Assembly: GCA_030448025.1 (NCBI GenBank)
Contig: JAUJNQ010000001.1
Location: 407,894 to 471,893 of the forward strand
DNA length: 64,000 nt
Source: Acidimicrobiales bacterium
Lineage (GTDB): Bacteria > Actinomycetota > Acidimicrobiia > Acidimicrobiales > GCA-2861595
Direction: 5' to 3'
Both the position numbers and the translations under genes were made by a program. Below the pieces are notes generated by a model. The model had not been told where the DNA came from. It was given only the letters and a program-made list of their open reading frames with translations, and searched no databases. Shown one piece after another: positions 25,642-59,405 of this stretch. The first letter of the stretch is position 1. The number at the start of each line of letters is the position of its first letter.

Positions 25642-27393
25642 GTGGGGATCGTCGAGGAGGACATCGCCCGGGTACGGGCGGCCACCGACTTGGTGGAGGT
25701 GGCGGGCGAGCACATCCAGACGCGCCGGGTAGGGCGACGCTGGGTGGGGCTGTGCCCCTTCCACGCCGAGAAGACGGCGTCGTTCTCCATCAACGCCGAG
25801 GAGGGCCTGTACTACTGCTTCGGGTGCCAGGCAAAGGGTGACGCCATCACGTTCCTGCGCGAGGTGGAGCACCTCGAGTTCGCCGAGGCGGTGGAACGGC
25901 TGGCGTCGCGAGCCGGCATCCAGCTCCGCTACGACGACGCCAGGGAGGGGCAGGACCGGAAGCGCCGTTCCCGCCTCATCGATGCCATGGAGGCGGCCGT
26001 CGAGTGGTACCACCAGTGCTTGCTCACCTCCGACGGGGCGGCGTCGGCCCGGGGCTATCTGCGGTCTCGGGGCTACGACGGGGACGTCGTGCGCAGGTTC
26101 AAGCTGGGTTGGGCGCCGGATGACTGGGACGCATTTTCCCGAGCGCTGCGGCTGCCCACCGACGTCCTGAGCCAGGCCGGCCTCGGCTTCGTGAACCGCC
26201 GGGGCCGACACCAGGATGCGTTCCGGGCCCGCGTGATGTTCCCCATCTATGACACGGCCGGCGCGCCGGTGGCCTTCGGCGGGCGCATCCTTCCGGGAGG
26301 CGACGGCCCGAAGTACAAGAACTCGCAGGAGACTGCCATCTACGCCAAGCGGCGCACGCTCTACGCCCTCAACTGGGCCAAGGTCGACGTGGTGACCGCC
26401 GGCGAGGTGATCGTCTGCGAGGGCTACACCGACGTTATCGGATGCTTCCAGGCGGGCCTTCCCCGGGCCGTGGCCACGTGCGGCACGGCACTGGCCGACG
26501 AGCACTTCCGTACCCTCAAGAACTTCACCCGCCGCATCGTGCTCGCCTACGACGCCGACGCGGCCGGCCAGGCCGCAGCCGAGCGCTTCTACGAATGGGA
26601 GCAGCGATACGAGGTCGATGTGGCCGTTGCGCCCTTGGCCCCCGGCACCGATCCGGGTGACCTGGCCCGCAGCGACCCGGGCGCGCTGCTGGCCGCGGTC
26701 AAGGAAGCCAAGCCCCTGCTCGCCTTCCGGCTCGAGCGGGTACTGGCCGGCGCCGAGCTCAGGACTCCCGAAGGTCGGGCGCGTGGCGCGCAGGCGGCGA
26801 TGAGCGTCGTCAGCGAGCACCCCGACGTGCTCGTGCGCGACCAGTACCTCATGCAGGTCGCCGACCGCTGCCGGGTGGAGCCCGACCGCCTGCGAGCCGC
26901 GCTCAGCAGCACGTCGCGACGGGGCCGGCCTTGGCAGCAGCTGGTAGACCCCCGGCGGCAGTCCGACCGCGGCGGACCCGAGCTCGAGGCGCTTCGCCTC
27001 GCCGTGCACAAGGGCGACGAGGTCGTTCACCGCCTGCACGAGGTCCTCTTCGCCGACGAGCTGCACCTGGCCGCCTTTCGAGCGGTTGCATCGTCAGCGA
27101 CCTTGCGAGAGGCGATCGACGCCGCCGACCCCGGGGCCGCGGAGCTGCTGCAACGCCTGGCGGTGGAGGAGGCTCACGCCGACCCCGACGATGTGTTGAA
27201 CCTCATTGTCCATCGCGCCGGCGAGCGGGCGCTGCACCAACTCGAGGCCGAAGTTCGAGCGTCAGAGGAGCGGGGGCCCGAGCTCTCGCGTGCGGTCGGT
27301 TGGCTGAAGCTCACGCTCGAACGCCTTCCCGACCCCGAGGCGGCCAGTGCGTTGGTAGCTTGGCTTGCTCAGTGGGGCCACAACAGAGGCTGA
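25642..27393 (+). CDS. dnaG: DNA primase DnaG
   Basis: 583 residues. The CHC2 zinc domain ([24 protein letters not shown]) begins near residue 35. The RNA polymerase/TOPRIM core follows, with [13 protein letters not shown] and [14 protein letters not shown]; a C-terminal helicase-binding region ends the protein. GTG at 25642 starts right before [11 protein letters not shown], the typical DnaG beginning; upstream in-frame sequence belongs to the repeat element. The next gene is the primary sigma factor, the classic macromolecular-synthesis pairing. Confidence 0.95.
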
Positions 27394-28664
27394 CCGACGC
27401 GACTCCTGAGCTCCCCAACCCGGAGGTCGGTTTCGCACAGGCCTTTGCCGGGCTACTCACCAAGGGTCGGGCGCATGGTGTGGTCACTGCGGACGACGTG
27501 GCGACGGTCTTGCATTCCGTCGAGCTCACCCCCGAGGTGATCGACGCCGTGATCGGGGCGGTGAAGGCCGAGGGCATCGACTTCGACGGCGACGACCTGG
27601 TGGGGGCCCATCACGAGTCGTCAGAGCACGAGGCCCCCACGAAGACGGCCGCCAGGCTCAGCCCTCTCCCCCGGAAGCCGCCGTCGAAGGGGCGCAGCTC
27701 CAGAGCGGCCGATCACGACACCCGTCGCAACTACGCCTCCGACCCGGTTCGTCTCTACCTCAAGGAGATCGGCAAGGTCCCGCTTCTGACCGCCCACGAA
27801 GAGGTCATGCTGGCGCGCCGCGTCGAGGCCGGGTTGGCCGCGGCGCAGCGCATCGCCGATCTCGAGGACGCCAACGGTGGCCAGGCCCACGTGCCCGCCC
27901 ACGAGCTCCACGACGAGGAGAAGGTGGTGATGGATGGGCTCGAAGCGAAGCAACGCCTCATCAACGCCAACCTCCGGCTGGTGGTCTCCATCGCCAAGCG
28001 TTACCGCAACGCCGGGATGGCGTTCCTGGACCTGATCCAGGAGGGAAACGTGGGCCTCATGCGAGCCGTAGAGAAGTTTGACTACAACAAGGGCTTCAAG
28101 TTCTCGACGTATGCCACGTGGTGGATCCGCCAAGCAATCACCCGAGCCATCGCCGAACAGGCCCGCACCATCCGCATCCCCGTGCACATGGTGGAGACCC
28201 TTCACAAGGTGGCGCAGGCCCAGCGCCAGCTCGTTCAGGAGCTGGGGAGTGAGCCTTCCGTCGAGCAGATCGCCGCCCGGATGGAGCTGGGGCCGTCCCG
28301 CGTGCGGGAGTTGCTGCGCATGGGACAAGACACCGTGTCGCTGGAGCAGCCCATGGGCAACGAAGACTTCAGCCTGGGCGACCTCATCGAGGACGAATCG
28401 GCCGTGGTGCCCGCGGCCGCTGCGGCACACACGCTGCTCAACGAGGCGGTGAAGCAGGCCCTAGAGGAGTTGTCAGAGCGTGAGCGTCAGGTGGTGCGCA
28501 TGCGATTCGGTCTGGAAGACGGGAAGGCTCGCACGCTGGAGGAGGTCGGCAAGGAGTTCGGGGTGACCCGGGAGCGAATCCGCCAGATCGAGGGCAAGGT
28601 GCTCACCAAGCTGCGCGACCCCTCGACGAGCGAGCAGTTGCGCGGCTACCTCGAGGAGGGTTAA
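27372..28664 (+). CDS. rpoD: Primary sigma factor RpoD/SigA
   Basis: About 430 residues with all regions of a group 1 sigma factor: a region 1.1-like segment (residues 15-75), a basic linker, region 1.2 [17 protein letters not shown], region 2 [20 protein letters not shown] and [15 protein letters not shown], region 3 and region 4 [19 protein letters not shown]. The start is uncertain; GTG 27372 overlaps the dnaG end by 22 nt and TTG 27360 is an alternative. Overlap with dnaG implies one transcript. Confidence 0.95.
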
Positions 28665-46877: not shown

Positions 46878-46902
46878 CGCTGGCAGTCAGCGACCTTTTT
46901 TT
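46878..46902 (+). terminator. Candidate intrinsic terminator after the esterase gene
   Basis: Hairpin CGCTG-GCAGT-CAGCG followed after three bases by seven Ts. It lies 77 bp after the esterase stop; the T run overlaps the convergent sigma-factor stop. The stem is short (5 bp), so it is weak. Confidence 0.5.
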
Positions 46903-47687
46903 CAATCTTCGGCGCTGTCTGGTCTCTGATTCAGCCAAGATCGCAGCTGTAACATGGCCTTGCCGTAGATCTGGTACATCCTGCTCACGGTGACCCTGAG
47001 CGCGTCGCCGATCTCGGCCAGGGTGAGGCCCTCGTAGTAGTAGAGCGTGAGGACGGTCTTCTCCGGGTCGGCCAGCCGCTTGATGGCGTCTGCCAACACC
47101 TCCTTGGACTCCTCGCCCTCCATGGCCTGCATGGGGCCGTCGCCCTTGGTGGACACTCCCTGCTCCCCACCCGGGGACAACATCTCGTCGAGGGCCACGA
47201 GGCCCACGGAGGAGACCTGCTGGAAGAACTTCTGCAGCTCGCTTTCGCTGATCCCCATCTCCTCGGCCACCTCGGCGTCGGTTGGGGTGCGCAGTAAGGA
47301 TGTCTCGAGCTTGGTATAAGCCTTCTCCACCGACCTGGCCTTGGCCCGGACAGAGCGGGGGATCCAGTCGATCAAGCGGAGCTCGGCGATGATGGCGCCC
47401 TTTATGCGGGAGATGGCGTAGGTCTCGAACTTGATGCTCCGCCCGGGTTCGAATTTGTCGATGGCGTCGATGAGGCCGAAGACCCCGTAGCTCACCAGGT
47501 CAGCCTGGTCGATCCTTTGTGGGAGTCCGACCGACACTCGCCCCGCCACGTACTTCACCAGCGGCGAATAGTGGATGATGAGCCCGTCCCGCGCCTCTTG
47601 AGAGCCAGAGCTCTTGTACTCAGTCCAGAGGCGGCTGATCACTCTTTGGACTTCCAGCCGCCGCTGCTCTTCGTTCTGGAATTCCAA
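46902..47687 (-). CDS. FliA/WhiG-family sigma factor
   Basis: 261 residues with sigma regions 2, 3 and 4 and no region 1.1. Motifs: HYSPLVKYVAGRVSVGLPQR, DLVSYGVFGLIDAIDKFEPG, FETYAISRIKGAIIAELR in region 2, TPTDAEVAEEMGISE in region 3 and YYEGLTLAEIGDALRVTVSR in region 4. This is the WhiG/FliA type, used for sporulation or motility in actinobacteria. No flagellar gene or anti-sigma is adjacent, so the regulon is not evident. Confidence 0.93.
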   Translation of the reverse strand: MEFQNEEQRRLEVQRVISRLWTEYKSSGSQEARDGLIIHYSPLVKYVAGRVSVGLPQRIDQADLVSYGVFGLIDAIDKFEPGRSIKFETYAISRIKGAIIAELRLIDWIPRSVRAKARSVEKAYTKLETSLLRTPTDAEVAEEMGISESELQKFFQQVSSVGLVALDEMLSPGGEQGVSTKGDGPMQAMEGEESKEVLADAIKRLADPEKTVLTLYYYEGLTLAEIGDALRVTVSRMYQIYGKAMLQLRSWLNQRPDSAED

Positions 47688-47938: not shown

Positions 47939-49624
47939 TCATCCTGCGCCCCTCTTCTGCGAACGGCGCTGGGAATCTTCCTTGGGAGCGACGGTGACCG
48001 CCCCAACCCGACCATTTTGCTGCCACTCCGCCTCCAACCGCTGAGCAGTCGCGTCGACGCGGTTGGGCTCACGTAGGAAGTCCTGGAGAGCCCTGCCCAT
48101 CCCTTGATCTCGAGCGGAGCCAAAGGTGGGCTGCTGCAGGTCCGAGAGGTCGAAGCGGATCGTCTTCGCGTCGACGAGCAGTCTGGCGGCGCGGCGAGTG
48201 GCGTCGTCGGGATACACACCAGGGTCCAGGCTCTTGTTGGGGGAGCTGAACCCCCCTTCTCGTGCCCAAGGCTCGGCCGCCTCCGGGGTGGCAAGGAAGC
48301 GGATGAGCTTCTTGCTGAGCTCGTTGTCGGTGAACAGCACGGCGACGTCACCACCTGCGACCAGACCTGCCTCCGAGTCGTGGCCGACTCTCGGAAACTC
48401 GAAGAAGCTGGCCAGCGGCCTCACCTGCTTGGAGATGTGGTTGGAGACGAAGTCCCCCTCGAACACCATGGCCGCCTTCCGGTCCGAGCCGAAGACCTGC
48501 CGAACCGACGCGGCGTAGTCGGTGCGGAGCGCACCCTCTGGCCCGTCCGGCAACCATTCCTTCTTGGCGAAGATCTCGGCCAGCACGCGCAGGGTGTCCT
48601 TGACCGAGTCGTCGGTCCAGAGGAGCCTGTGGTCGGCAAGCCGGTCGTATTTCTCGGGCCCAGCGGTGCGGAGGTAGACGTTCTCGAACCAGTCCGTGAG
48701 GGTCCAGCCGGAGTCGCCGGCCAAGGCAAACGGGGCGAGCTCTGACTTGGTGGCGATGTCGCCGGCCACCCGCTGCCACTCCTCCCACGTTTGGGGAGGG
48801 TGCACCCCGACTTCCCGGAACGCTTCGGTGCTGTACCAGACGATCGATTTGTTGGCTGCCTTGAACCAGACGCCGTACAGGGTGTCCTTTACCGAGCCGA
48901 GCCGACGCCATTCGGGGGAGTAGTGCTTGGTTACCAAGTCCCCCGCTATGTCCTCGATCGGCAGGATGTTGCCTTTACTGGCCAGCTCCGCGACCAGACC
49001 GGGCTGCGGGACAAGGGCAATGTCGGGCGGGCAATGACGCTCGACTCGTGCCCTCAGCGTATCGGCGATGTCGTGGCCCTCGGGCTGGTAGGCAAGGGTC
49101 ACCTCTGAGCCGGACCACTTCTCGAACAACTCCAGGACGGGGGCGAACCTCGCTCGCTCGTCGTCGCTCCACACCCCTGCAACGACGATGCCTTGATCAT
49201 CGGCGCCTCCACAGGCGGGAGTGAACGCAACCGCGGCCACCGCCTCTTCGTCTGCGGAGAACAGAGTGGCCACGGCCAAGATGACGGCCACCAAAGCAGC
49301 GGCGATCTTCGACAGCGGCGGCTTGGGCAACCTGCGCCTGGCGGGGCGTCGCCGTGGACGGTCAGGCGCCGCCGCCCCCCGCCCCCTCGTGCCGACGGTT
49401 CGCCTGGCCATGTCGACAACTGTCACGGACCGTCGCAGACTCTCCAGATAGGGCTTCGGGTCGACGCCGCGCGCGTCCTCGATGATCTGAATGGCGCATT
49501 CGGCCTCCTCCCTCTCGGCCTCCGTCAAGTCGTCGAGGGATGGCGGAGCTGCCTCGCCCTCGAGGTAGGCCAGGAATGTGGCGACGGCGTCGTTGACCGG
49601 GCTGCTGGGATCAGGCGCAATCAC
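47939..49624 (-). CDS. Membrane-anchored solute-binding-domain protein, putative anti-sigma/sensor
   Basis: 561 residues. Residues 1-100 are cytoplasmic: an acidic helical part (NDAVATFLAYLEGE, DDLTEAEREEAECAIQIIED), then a strongly basic linker. One membrane helix follows at about 106-123 (IAAALVAVILAVATLF). Residues about 135-545 form a full extracellular solute-binding domain of the MalE/alpha-glucoside type (ARFAPVLELFEKWSGSEVTL, YGVWFKAANKSIVWYSTEAF, PQTWEEWQRVAGDIA, AAMVFEGDF). It lacks a lipobox or cleavable signal. The GTG start overlaps the ECF sigma stop by 14 nt with GGAGG upstream. No permease or ATPase is near, so a signalling role is inferred. Confidence 0.85.
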   Translation of the reverse strand: MIAPDPSSPVNDAVATFLAYLEGEAAPPSLDDLTEAEREEAECAIQIIEDARGVDPKPYLESLRRSVTVVDMARRTVGTRGRGAAAPDRPRRRPARRRLPKPPLSKIAAALVAVILAVATLFSADEEAVAAVAFTPACGGADDQGIVVAGVWSDDERARFAPVLELFEKWSGSEVTLAYQPEGHDIADTLRARVERHCPPDIALVPQPGLVAELASKGNILPIEDIAGDLVTKHYSPEWRRLGSVKDTLYGVWFKAANKSIVWYSTEAFREVGVHPPQTWEEWQRVAGDIATKSELAPFALAGDSGWTLTDWFENVYLRTAGPEKYDRLADHRLLWTDDSVKDTLRVLAEIFAKKEWLPDGPEGALRTDYAASVRQVFGSDRKAAMVFEGDFVSNHISKQVRPLASFFEFPRVGHDSEAGLVAGGDVAVLFTDNELSKKLIRFLATPEAAEPWAREGGFSSPNKSLDPGVYPDDATRRAARLLVDAKTIRFDLSDLQQPTFGSARDQGMGRALQDFLREPNRVDATAQRLEAEWQQNGRVGAVTVAPKEDSQRRSQKRGAG

Positions 49625-50309
49625 CGATGGGCCTCCTTCCGTTCTGCTGCCGCGCTGGCCGGACACCTTCTCGAGGCCAGAACAGCTGCTGGGCGTCGCG
49701 CAGCTTGCGGAGGGCCTGGACCAACACTTGGCCCACCCGCTGGCCTGAGATCGACGGCTCGAAGTCATGCCCGACGTCGGTGCGAGTCCGGACATGTCCG
49801 AGCACTTGAACAAAGACGTGCAGCTCTTGTTCGGAGAGCACGCCGCTTAGCCGGTATAGGAGTTCACGACGCTCGGCCGCCTCGGCGGCGTCGAAGTACT
49901 CATCTTCGACGCTGCCGACAAGGTCCGCCTCCAGGACATCGACCTTGACTCCGAGACGAACTCCTGTGCGACAACGGTCCTCGCCGTTCGACTCAGCTCG
50001 CTCGAGGTATGAGATGCGGCTGGGCTTGTTACGCCGCAAGGCGTCGAGAGCGGCATTGCGTGTGGCTGTCAAGGCGTAGCTTTGAAGGTTCACGATGGTC
50101 GAGGGATCGGTTGCCATCACACGCATCCAGGCTCTGTGGGCGATGTCATCAGCCGAATCCCCACCCAGTTGTCCGAACCGCCCGATGATGCCGTGGGCGC
50201 GTAGGACCATTCTGTCGATGACGCTTCGGTACGCAGGGCCCCAATCCGGTGGGTCGGCGCGGGCCCAGGCCAGCAGGCGGTCGCTGGTTCCGTGGTCCAC
50301 GTGGCTCAA
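49611..50309 (-). CDS. ECF-type RNA polymerase sigma factor
   Basis: 232 residues. Region 2 at about 25-100 (HGIIGRFGQLGGDSADDIAH, RAWMRVMATDPS, QSYALTATRNAALDALRRNK), an unusually long linker of about 45 residues, and region 4 at about 150-205 (LYRLSGVLSEQELHVFVQVL, ISGQRVGQVLVQALRKLRDA). Regions 1 and 3 are absent, as in ECF factors. Start is TTG at 50309; GTG nine bases later is an alternative. Its 3' end overlaps the solute-binding-domain gene, which is therefore the likely regulator. Confidence 0.85.
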   Translation of the reverse strand: MSHVDHGTSDRLLAWARADPPDWGPAYRSVIDRMVLRAHGIIGRFGQLGGDSADDIAHRAWMRVMATDPSTIVNLQSYALTATRNAALDALRRNKPSRISYLERAESNGEDRCRTGVRLGVKVDVLEADLVGSVEDEYFDAAEAAERRELLYRLSGVLSEQELHVFVQVLGHVRTRTDVGHDFEPSISGQRVGQVLVQALRKLRDAQQLFWPREGVRPARQQNGRRPIGDCA

Positions 50310-50456
50310 AGAGAAGACGTAGGACGTTCAGATATCGAAAGTGCGTCCCGTGGCGACGCTAGCGGAGTGGCGCTTTCGGCTCAGGAACCGGATGCGTCCT
50401 TCCCATGGCGACAGAAGATCTCTACGCCTAGAGCTATTGAGCGGAGAGCGGCAGTC

Positions 50457-51446
50457 ATGAACTCCGGCTATCGGACAGGCCCCAACCGGGCGGGCTCTAC
50501 CCCTCTCTTCGGCGTCGTGGCGGGAACCGCACTGGTGTTGGCCGCCATCGGATGTGTGGCCTTCCTGATGATGTTCATTGGGGGTTGGAAATCAGTCCCT
50601 GTAGACAAGGTTGCCCTGCACTACACAGGGGGCCCCATCCAGGGGCAGCACTTCGAGGAGGTCGTTGCGCCTGGAACCCGCGCCAGGTTCTACGGGCTAC
50701 TGGAGCAACTGCACGAGCTCCCCGCCACTCAGCGTAACTACATCATGTCCAAGAACCCCGGGGAAGGTGACAGGAGACATGCCGAGTTCGTTGGGGCGCC
50801 AACGCGGGACAAGGTTGTCGTCGAATGGGAAAGCGCCACCTACTTCAAGCTCAACACGGACGGCCCCGTAGTGCGTACGTTCTTCGAGCAGATCTGTCTC
50901 AAGTATGAGTGTACGGACTTGTCACCCGGGGGCGGCTGGGACCGCATGTTGGCGGATACGTTTCGCCAGCAGATCGTCGCTGCCATCCAAGCCGAGGCCC
51001 GGCGTTACACGGCAGAGGACATCTTCTCCAATCGGGAGACCCTCCTGCGCATCCAGTCGGAGGTCGGCTCCACCTTGAAGGAACGGGTCGCCGAGGTGCT
51101 TGGAGGAGAGTTCTTCTGCGGTCCCACCTACAGGCCTTCCCTTCCGTCCGAATGCCCGGATTTCAGCTTCTTGATCAAGGAGGTGACGCTCCCGCAGCCG
51201 CTTCTGGACCAGTACCGCGCCGTCGAGGAGGCCCGGACCAAGGCCACCGAGAAGAGGATCGAGGCCGAAGGCGAGGCAGCGAAGCAAAACGTCCTTCGGG
51301 CCCCACAGAATCTCACGCCCTCCCAGCTCGTGGACTACATGCGGGTTCAAGCCGAGATGGAATGCGCCCGGCGCGAGGGATGTCTCCTAGTGGCGGGCAA
51401 TGGCCCGAGCGGCGTGGTGGTGAGCCCACCAGGAAGATCGCCGTGA
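50457..51446 (+). CDS. SPFH/Band-7 domain membrane protein
   Basis: 329 residues. N-terminal membrane helix at about 18-42 (GVVAGTALVLAAIGCVAFLM), then a Band-7 domain starting VPVDKVALHYTGGPI, with RYTAEDIFSNRETLLRIQSE and the helical coiled part EEARTKATEKRIEAEGEAAK. Stomatin/prohibitin-like proteins form membrane scaffolds and often accompany proteases. ATG 50457 has GGAGAG upstream; the frame opens at 50292. It is divergent from the ECF sigma gene with about 150 bp between. Confidence 0.85.
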   Translation: MNSGYRTGPNRAGSTPLFGVVAGTALVLAAIGCVAFLMMFIGGWKSVPVDKVALHYTGGPIQGQHFEEVVAPGTRARFYGLLEQLHELPATQRNYIMSKNPGEGDRRHAEFVGAPTRDKVVVEWESATYFKLNTDGPVVRTFFEQICLKYECTDLSPGGGWDRMLADTFRQQIVAAIQAEARRYTAEDIFSNRETLLRIQSEVGSTLKERVAEVLGGEFFCGPTYRPSLPSECPDFSFLIKEVTLPQPLLDQYRAVEEARTKATEKRIEAEGEAAKQNVLRAPQNLTPSQLVDYMRVQAEMECARREGCLLVAGNGPSGVVVSPPGRSP

Positions 51447-51465: not shown

Positions 51466-51744
51466 ATGACTCAAGTCCTCGCCCTCCTCGTCGGGCTGAT
51501 CATCGTCACGGCGGGTGCGGCTCTCATCGTGATGTCTGTGGGCAACAGTCGGCGCCGAGCCGTGGATCGCTCGCCGGCGTCCGCGCTGCAGGTGGGAGAC
51601 ATGTGGTACCGACAAGCCGTGCGGATCGCTCGCTTGCTTGAGCAAGTCCGGCGCGACGACATGATCGCTGTCACCATTCCTCCACCCGTCAAGCGGGAAA
51701 TCGACGAGGCCCTCGGGCAATTCTGGGACCTCCACACTCCTTGA
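51466..51744 (+). CDS. Small membrane protein downstream of Band-7 gene
   Basis: 92 residues with one N-terminal membrane helix (VLALLVGLIIVTAGAALIVM) and a soluble tail containing WYRQAVRIARLLEQVRRDD. Unknown family. It lies 19 bp after the Band-7 stop with AGGTGAG before ATG, so the two are probably one operon and may act together at the membrane. Confidence 0.65.
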   Translation: MTQVLALLVGLIIVTAGAALIVMSVGNSRRRAVDRSPASALQVGDMWYRQAVRIARLLEQVRRDDMIAVTIPPPVKREIDEALGQFWDLHTP

Positions 51745-57518: not shown

Positions 57519-59405
57519 TCAGGCCGCCCGTAACGCCAACTCGATCGCGTACTCGGCCCACCACTGCCCGGCGGGAGGCCCGCCGTTGCAGGTGCCGTCG
57601 GACTCGCCCGGGTACTTGACCCAGAGGACGGCGTCGAGCAGGGCAACCCCTGTGGCCGTGTTCGGTGGCGTGCCAAGGCCCCTGCCCGCAGGGTTGCACC
57701 AATTGCGGTTGGAGCCCTGAGCGTTGCGGCTGGTGTCCACGACGAAGTGCGCTCCACCCACGAGATTGGACACCACCTGACCGTAGGACACCTCGTCGCT
57801 GGTAGGCATGAAGTTGCTCACGTTCAGGCTGAAGCCCCGCGCCCTGGACACGCCGGCAGCTCGGAGGCGCTCGGCCATGACTCCAGCGGGCTTCCAGGCA
57901 CTGTGGCCGGCGTCCAAGTAGACGACGGTTGCCGGCAGGTCGTCGAGGACCCCCACGGCCTCCCTCAGGAGGTCCAGACGGCGCCGTTGCGTGACGGTGT
58001 CAAGGCAATCGAGCTGGGCAAGCGCATCAGGCTCCAAGATGACCGCGGCAGGACGAGTACCTATGCCAGCGGAGAAAGATCGGATCCACGCCCGGTAGGT
58101 ATCTTCGACCAGCCCGCCCCCGGAGAAGCCGCCGCAGTCCCGATGGGGGATGGCGTATGCCACGAGGACGGGGAGTTGGCCCACGACCGAGGCCTGCGAA
58201 ACCTTGGCATCGACCGCCGTCCGCACATCGGTGTTCCAGTCGCCGAACCACGACGACGTGGGGCGAGTGGCGATGCGGTCCATGAGAGCGGCATCGCCGG
58301 CGCGACTGAGTCGCCATTCCGACGCCTGCCGGCCAGCTGGGGTGTTCGGCTCTATCCACAGCGGACGCGAGGCCAACGGGTTCGGCGCCCCCGACTGGTC
58401 TGGCAACCACTTGTGCCAGAGGGCGTTGTCGCCTCCGCGAACGACTACGTCGCGGCGCCCGGCTCCGCCAGACACCGCCGCTGGATCCGATGTGAGGTAA
58501 CCACCTTGTGAGATCCACGGCGACCAACCAGAGCCGTCCCACGATCGCTGCCACAGGGCGTTGTCACCGCCCCGGACGAACACGTCGAGCTTGTCGGGGG
58601 CGGCCGAGGCGGCGTCAGGACCGGACGTCAAGTACCCGCCGAGCGAGACCCAACCTGACCAGCGGGAGCCGTCCCACCCCTTGTGCCAGAGGGCGTTGTC
58701 ACCCCCGCGGACGAAGACGTCCAAGTGCCCTGGGCCCCACGAGACGGCGGTGGGGTTGGACGTCAAGTAGCCGCCGAGCGGTCCCCAACCTGACCAGCGG
58801 GAGCCGTCCCACCACTTGTGCCAGAGGGCGTTGTCACCGCCTCGTACCACCACGTCGAGGCGTCCCGGCGACCAGGAAGCCACATCAGGCCCGGACGTCA
58901 AGTAGCCGCCGAGCGATTCCCAACCTGACCAGCGAGAGCCGTCCCACCACTTGTGCCAGAGGGCGTTGTCACCCCCGCGGACGAAGACGTCGAGCCGGCC
59001 GGAAGCCCATGACACCGCAGCGGGGTCCGAAGCCAGGTAGCCACCGTGGCTTTGCCAGCCGCCCTGGCAGGAGCCGTTCGACACGTGATGCCAAAGGGCG
59101 TTGTCGCCGCCTCGTACCACCACGTCGAGCCGACCCGGCGCCGACGAAGCCACGTCAGGACTGGAGGTCAGGTACCCGCCCCTGGATTCCCAAGTGGACG
59201 GTGACGATGACGGGCAAGGATCGGACGCAGATGCGCGCAGCTCCGCGCCGAGTACTTGGGCTTGTCCTCCACCAGGCTCTCCGGATCCCCCGCCTGGGCC
59301 GGGCTGGCCCCGCGACAAGAACCCGGCGACGAGGGTGATCGCAACCACCAGGGCATAGACCATGGGGGCCGCGACCGCCCGAGACCTTTCCGTCTCGGAG
59401 GGCAT
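57519..59405 (-). CDS. Glycoside hydrolase family 6 enzyme with six propeller repeats
   Basis: 628 residues. An N-terminal membrane/signal helix (VYALVVAITLVAGFLS) and a Gly/Pro linker precede six 45-residue repeats (typical core RWSGWESLGGYLTSGPDVAS, LDVVVRGGDNALWHK) at about 65-335, a PLL-like beta-propeller. The GH6 catalytic domain (345-625) shows YAIPHRDCGGFSGGG, the catalytic-acid motif VILEPDALAQLDC, FSLNVSNFMPTSDE and WVKYPGESDGTC. GH6 enzymes are cellobiohydrolases or endoglucanases. The enzyme is likely surface-anchored, with the repeats binding sugar. Confidence 0.9.
   Translation of the reverse strand: MPSETERSRAVAAPMVYALVVAITLVAGFLSRGQPGPGGGSGEPGGGQAQVLGAELRASASDPCPSSSPSTWESRGGYLTSSPDVASSAPGRLDVVVRGGDNALWHHVSNGSCQGGWQSHGGYLASDPAAVSWASGRLDVFVRGGDNALWHKWWDGSRWSGWESLGGYLTSGPDVASWSPGRLDVVVRGGDNALWHKWWDGSRWSGWGPLGGYLTSNPTAVSWGPGHLDVFVRGGDNALWHKGWDGSRWSGWVSLGGYLTSGPDAASAAPDKLDVFVRGGDNALWQRSWDGSGWSPWISQGGYLTSDPAAVSGGAGRRDVVVRGGDNALWHKWLPDQSGAPNPLASRPLWIEPNTPAGRQASEWRLSRAGDAALMDRIATRPTSSWFGDWNTDVRTAVDAKVSQASVVGQLPVLVAYAIPHRDCGGFSGGGLVEDTYRAWIRSFSAGIGTRPAAVILEPDALAQLDCLDTVTQRRRLDLLREAVGVLDDLPATVVYLDAGHSAWKPAGVMAERLRAAGVSRARGFSLNVSNFMPTSDEVSYGQVVSNLVGGAHFVVDTSRNAQGSNRNWCNPAGRGLGTPPNTATGVALLDAVLWVKYPGESDGTCNGGPPAGQWWAEYAIELALRAA
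58411..59220 (-). repeat. Six 135-bp tandem repeats in the GH6 gene
   Basis: The landmark TTGTGCCAGAGGGCGTTGTC or close variants recurs at 58411, 58546, 58681, 58816, 58951 and 59086, exactly 135 bp apart. Units 3-5 are the most alike, the outer ones more diverged. Each codes for one 45-residue blade, six blades in all. Confidence 0.93.

Follow-up and report, generated by a model that had tools for sequence, protein, structure and literature searches.

A candidate receptor anti-sigma switch with a transporter-type solute-binding domain beside an ECF-like sigma factor in Acidimicrobiales

Receptor anti-sigma factors and the architecture of the locus

In Clostridium thermocellum, the RsgI proteins, which work with SigI, are carbohydrate-sensing membrane anti-sigma factors and need regulated proteolysis (PMC12203970). 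Regulated proteolysis is also needed for RsiV of Bacillus subtilis, the anti-sigma factor of sigma-V, which is itself a receptor for lysozyme (PMC5014341). The class I anti-sigma domain (ASDI) consists of four helices, three of which bind sigma-4 and the fourth sigma-2; its zinc motif is not obligatory (PMC7406223). In B. subtilis, sigma-W controls the flotillin genes floA and floT (PMC8581546, PMC8144471). An anti-sigma factor of the solute-binding-protein (SBP) type, or a pairing of sigma factor and CapP, is not described in the literature searched, which lay outside the main ECF re-classification (10.1093/nar/gkaa1229), and the module presented here may fall within a catalogued, uncharacterised ECF group.

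The window analysed is a stretch of 64,000 nucleotides from a 2.70-Mb Acidimicrobiales genome. The features relevant to this study are as follows.

47939..49624, (-): membrane-anchored SBP protein, putative receptor anti-sigma factor (561 aa; GTG start; Shine-Dalgarno GGAAGGAGG)
48014..49196, (-): predicted extracellular SBP domain of the CUT1 sugar type, residues ~143-537 (SBP_bac_1 match)
49257..49316, (-): the one membrane-spanning helix, residues ~104-122 (highest Kyte-Doolittle value 2.37, at 104)
49439..49624, (-): N-terminal ~60-aa sigma-partner motif (profile; consensus xVxxYLxxLxGxxxxPxLxxLxxxxxxxAxxLxxLL)
49611..49624, (-): overlap of the sigma and SBP genes (14 nt; ORF coordinates)
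49611..50309, (-): ECF-like sigma factor, divergent in sequence (232 aa; TTG start; region 2 above the Pfam cut-off)
50336..50378, no strand: CGAAAGYGC-N-GCRCTTTCG, a weak inverted repeat in the gap separating the sigma and SPFH genes, at a position matching the repeat of relatives
50457..51446, (+): SPFH/band-7 membrane protein, putative target (329 aa; divergent from the sigma gene; Band_7)
51466..51744, (+): small membrane protein just behind the SPFH gene, uncertain member of the module (92 aa; ORF and position)

The N-terminus of the sigma factor lines up with the MKxLD start of its relatives. The protein matches Sigma70_r2 above the Pfam cut-off (E=3.2e-7, residues 38-95) and Sigma70_r4 weakly, below the cut-off (0.012, residues 157-204), and no region 3 was found with Pfam or NCBIfam models. 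TIGR02937 gives 39.8 bits, just below its cut-off of 42.9, which the homologue at locus L077 clears with 48.5. The top PDB fold matches of an AlphaFold2 model (mean pLDDT 66) are sigma-factor structures. ECF (group 4) sigma factors contain only regions 2 and 4, are about 160-230 aa long and lack regions 1.1 and 3; the window protein answers to this description, with a weak region 4. Downstream of the SBP gene, at a distance of 250 bp, is a second sigma factor gene (46902-47687, (-)); its product has regions 2, 3 and 4 and by eye is of the WhiG/FliA type.

For the SBP gene, the start of the longest ORF, a TTG at 49813, was rejected because a strong ribosome-binding site (GGAAGGAGG) precedes the GTG at 49624 by ~7 nt and this GTG aligns with the starts of relatives. 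The 14-nt overlap likely couples translation of the two genes. The membrane helix has 10 K/R before it and none after, a strong positive-inside bias that places the N-terminus inside and the C-terminus outside; the predicted cytoplasmic part is ~103 aa long and has a single Cys, at 43. The window protein has no lipobox. The layout described in the initial annotation, with overlapping genes, a cytoplasmic N-terminus, one helix and an outer SBP domain lacking a lipobox, is thus borne out. So is its remark that no permease or ATPase lies nearby: none was recognised among the flanking ORFs tested, a subset of those lying between position ~41 kb and the end of the window. The SBP protein has the SBP_bac_1 domain of CUT1 transporter SBPs, but instead of their lipobox or soluble export, with permease and ATPase partners, it has a membrane helix behind its cytoplasmic part, and no permease was recognised in the flanking ORFs tested.

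The locus resembles RsgI/SigI in its putative sigma-holding cytoplasmic N-terminus, its one membrane helix, its outer sensor and its position beside a sigma gene. The sensors of RsgI proteins, however, are CBM, glycosidase or PA14 domains, whereas here we find an ABC-type solute-binding domain for soluble ligands; the sigma factor is ECF-like, with regions 2 and 4, and the neighbouring gene encodes an SPFH protein. Pfam and NCBIfam searches found neither the N-terminal nor the autocleavage periplasmic domain of RsgI in the SBP protein, which places it outside that family. With RsiV it would share an ECF sigma factor and the principle that the anti-sigma factor doubles as receptor of a ligand outside the cell; the ligand domain is unrelated, without a family match. 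Like ASDI, the predicted helical N-terminus spans ~100 aa before the membrane helix and is encoded directly behind an ECF gene, but it lacks the Hx3Cx2C zinc motif and any anti-sigma match in Pfam or NCBIfam, carries a distinct YLxxLxG...PxLxxL motif, and has a weakly predicted number of helices. Placing an SPFH-family membrane protein under an ECF sigma factor would recall sigma-W and FloA/FloT; here, though, the SPFH gene is divergent and adjacent, and the putative anti-sigma factor bears an SBP sensor. The protein may be read as working like the known receptor anti-sigma factors, while by its sequence it belongs to neither class I nor RsgI.

On balance, we lean towards an RsgI/RsiV-like receptor anti-sigma switch, in which a transporter binding domain would serve as sensor and the SPFH protein as the controlled output. 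The N-terminal ~60-100 residues of the membrane protein would bind the ECF-like sigma factor, holding it to the membrane. By sequence, one helix crosses the membrane and carries outside it a domain that most likely came, in a single event, from the binding protein of an ABC sugar transporter and has kept most of the transporter-type conserved residues. A ligand would close this domain, and the sigma factor would be freed, directly or via intramembrane proteolysis, and transcribe its own operon and the divergent gene for the SPFH/band-7 protein, a membrane organiser. The one-step release initially suggested is unproven: RsgI and RsiV, which come nearest in function, depend on regulated proteolysis.

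Conservation of the module and origin of the outer domain

The module is rare. A sigma gene, a gene for a protein with N-terminal motif, membrane helix and SBP domain, and a divergent SPFH gene occur together in only four of the order's ~400 genomes: that of the window and three relatives (L039/G070, L077/G321 and L078/G270), all three from one other family. In each relative the upstream sigma gene overlaps the gene for the membrane-anchored SBP. A fifth locus (L118/G137) holds the SBP part only, at a contig end that breaks inside the gene. A lack of co-occurrence of the two genes in relatives had been named at the outset among the findings that would refute the idea; the pair is kept in three further genomes, and chance proximity is rejected because the arrangement is conserved at four loci. 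Between the window and L039, the SPFH protein is better conserved (63% identity) than the sigma factor (30%), with the SBP protein at 44%. The conserved divergent SPFH gene, the Cys pair, the promoter-region repeat and the wider sigma-partner family described below all go beyond the initial annotation.

The SPFH protein has a Band_7 domain (E=7.7e-10, 39.5 bits against a cut-off of 23.6, residues 46-274) preceded by a hydrophobic segment, the combination of N-terminal anchor and Band_7 by which SPFH proteins are recognised. The same genome has a second SPFH/band-7 gene of this family (L087, contig C2, ~26789-27715), beside a gene for a small one-helix protein; no sigma or SBP gene was seen near it.

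The outer domain matches SBP_bac_1 over residues 162-450 (55.8 bits against a cut-off of 26), and its PDB relatives are NagB1/NagB2 and AcbH, binders of chito-oligosaccharides and other sugars. Its best homologues outside the locus (99 relatives) are mostly ordinary lipoproteins, and a lipoprotein paralogue in the window's own genome is 51-52% identical. The five membrane SBPs form one clade nested among the lipoproteins (UFBoot/SH-aLRT 96/95), and the membrane anchor requires a single change on the tree, a number as low as this being reached in 0/500 shuffles. The receptor form therefore most likely arose once.

Eleven close lipoproteins have 82 invariant columns in common, and the membrane-anchored SBPs keep 54 of these unchanged, including W239, K255, N258, W263, Y264, W307, D311, E314, N315, W336 and D426. 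Many of the retained residues are aromatic or acidic, a type common in sugar pockets. Cys138, in the stalk just before the domain, and Cys198 are common to all five membrane copies, the stalk Cys being visible in L118; the close lipoproteins have no Cys within the SBP domain. A disulfide between the two may tie the stalk to the domain. As to the ligand, nothing found supports the alpha-glucoside specificity implied by the binding tests first proposed, and no finding links the sensor to a specific sugar. Some 7 kb ahead of the sigma gene, a GH6 (cellulase-type) protein with DUF346 repeats is encoded (57519-59405, (-)), too far from the module for a ligand to be assigned from it.

It is also possible that the outer domain no longer senses small ligands and instead serves as a docking platform for another protein, such as a cell-wall partner, a transporter or a lipoprotein, or as a sensor of envelope stress, with the holding of sigma unchanged. 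We regard this as unlikely, although it is the alternative that survives best. The SPFH neighbour points to envelope or membrane stress rather than nutrition, and neither a permease nor a catabolic operon was recognised among the adjoining genes; against this stand the 54 unchanged lipoprotein-invariant columns, with their many aromatic and acidic residues.

The N-terminal motif and its genomic settings

Profiles of the first ~60-160 residues of the SBP protein, searched over the class, phylum and order, identified 15 further loci that lack the SBP domain, and in 15/15 a sigma gene lies directly ahead. At these loci the motif opens a protein of ~220-310 aa, whose gene overlaps or abuts the upstream ORF. 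Among 252 ORFs, an HMM seeded with sigma sequences matches all 15 of the upstream ones and none besides; since two of its six seeds came from these loci (L132 and L137, besides four SBP-linked sequences), 13/15 of the matches are independent. Two weak motif matches, L148 (E=1.8e-4) and L149 (E=5.4e-4), have no sigma gene and were discarded. A sigma gene accompanies all matches stronger than these, and also L133 (E=3.6e-4).

Pfam gives no match for the motif or for the motif proteins tested, and no PDB relative of the motif was found. AlphaFold2 models the SBP protein poorly (mean pLDDT 45); helices 9-21 and 35-50 (pLDDT ~78) are among the best-predicted parts, and two more, 57-64 and 69-76, are of low confidence. 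Because the motif stands behind a sigma gene in 15/15 loci and is fused to other domains, we consider it a modular sigma-partner domain, the shared element of a family that had no name. Anti-sigma genes lie directly beside their cognate sigma genes, and the 14-nt overlap, the four module loci and the 15 motif loci show such a placement. The motif is probably an anti-sigma domain, and the proposal that the N-terminus of the SBP protein holds the sigma factor, strengthened by the ~60-aa domain directly behind a sigma gene in every one of the other loci, has strong indirect support.

Seven loci (L154, L155, L156, L157, L161, L162 and L163) are three-gene units of divergent sigma factor, ~300-aa motif protein and SMC-like ATPase. 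The two ATPases tested match the PADLOC mad3 model (E=2e-21 and 7e-25), which stems from the MADS defence system, and the ATPases are also related to LmuB. The units of L154-L157 adjoin ThiF/E1-type genes; small ORFs nearby that look ubiquitin- or E2-like by eye have no Pfam match. Directly behind the unit of L163, a TIR-SAVED effector and a CD-NTase are encoded (L163:8888-11250). Three other loci (L159, L160 and L164) are CBASS-like: alongside an oligonucleotide cyclase (PADLOC E<=1e-108) they encode a sigma factor, a motif protein and an M78 peptidase, together with a small membrane protein. An M78 peptidase is supported by HMM in L132 and L160 and by eye in L164, and that of L160 is CapP-like (E=2.9e-12).

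Proteases of the CapP type act by cleaving a regulator (PMC13373217), and the CapP-like peptidase behind the motif protein therefore favours a role for the latter as a destructible inhibitor. These loci resemble the CapH-CapP arrangement of CBASS and other immune operons (PMC13373217) in having a CapP-like M78 peptidase behind the partner and, at some, beside a CD-NTase. They differ in that a sigma factor and its partner replace the HTH repressor, and the SBP loci have no peptidase. The gene content of L159, L160 and L164 suggests that CBASS is under sigma/anti-sigma control there.

The motif protein could instead be a co-activator or delivery partner, needed for the folding or activity of the sigma factor, so that the ligand-bound state switches transcription on; possibly the partner would recruit sigma to the membrane. 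Strict pairing of overlapping genes fits any obligate partner, and the motif proteins elsewhere are soluble, with no obvious membrane helix in the loci read. ECF sigma genes, however, usually precede their anti-sigma genes, and the peptidase behind some motif proteins is of a repressor-destroying class. We place this reading second among the alternatives and think it improbable.

Less probable again is that the sigma/motif pair is primarily a regulator of defence or genome stress, whose SBP/SPFH variant guards the membrane against attack from outside, for example by sensing a phage- or bacteriocin-related ligand. Sister pairs do adjoin CBASS cyclases, TIR-SAVED, E1-type and mad3/LmuB-like genes, but no defence gene was recognised in the SBP/SPFH loci, and PADLOC gave no significant match for the SBP, sigma or SPFH protein of the window. 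That the SBP protein is a transporter part with a changed anchor, feeding a permease encoded elsewhere, beside an incidental sigma gene, is most improbable and is rejected: its closest relatives are lipoproteins, two of them (L119 and L121) in CUT1-type ABC operons by eye, but the N-terminal motif, the linkage to sigma and SPFH genes across two families and the single origin all speak against it.

Returning to the receptor anti-sigma switch, there is a real chance that the motif defines a new anti-sigma class. The broader form of this proposal, to which we give even chances, is a sigma-binding class across Actinomycetota, in every case encoded after a divergent ECF-like sigma factor of its own and built into very different sensors: a transporter-derived outer sugar receptor with an SPFH output; SMC-like ATPases of the mad3/LmuB type by ubiquitin-like conjugation genes; and CapP-like peptidases by CBASS cyclases.

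The promoter region and wider implications

In L039, L077 and L078, a ~40-bp inverted repeat, GCAACCCC-N23-25-GGGGTTGC, lies between the SPFH and sigma genes. It occurs once each in G070, G321 and G270 and is absent from 7 comparison genomes. A free inverted-repeat search picks a different repeat in L077, and the repeat of L078 is matched by 23/300 shuffles. A divergent promoter common to both genes, in which two -35-like elements face each other, would account for the repeat. The window counterpart, CGAAAGYGC...GCRCTTTCG, occurs once in its genome and is not significant (117/300 shuffles are as good, and 153/2000 with the position fixed), so it is not used alone as evidence. Control of the SPFH gene by the sigma factor is suggested by synteny together with the repeat in relatives.

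If the proposed switch is correct, a transporter binding protein has become a signalling receptor by fusion to a sigma-holding domain, and a transcription switch reads small extracellular ligands without a kinase. Sensing would also be tied to an SPFH membrane organiser, a protein type whose inducers are poorly known in Actinobacteria. To our knowledge, this would be the first SBP-type receptor anti-sigma factor, and the sister loci would be the first case of such immune operons under sigma/anti-sigma control. The shared motif can also be used to search the phylum for immune and stress operons that a sigma factor controls, and synthetic biology might gain from the module a new orthogonal sensor part.

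Just past the SPFH gene, the window contains a fragment of an ISL3-type transposase and a weak match to phage integrase (52276-52884 and 53547-53984, (-)), hinting at a mobile-element boundary beyond that gene.
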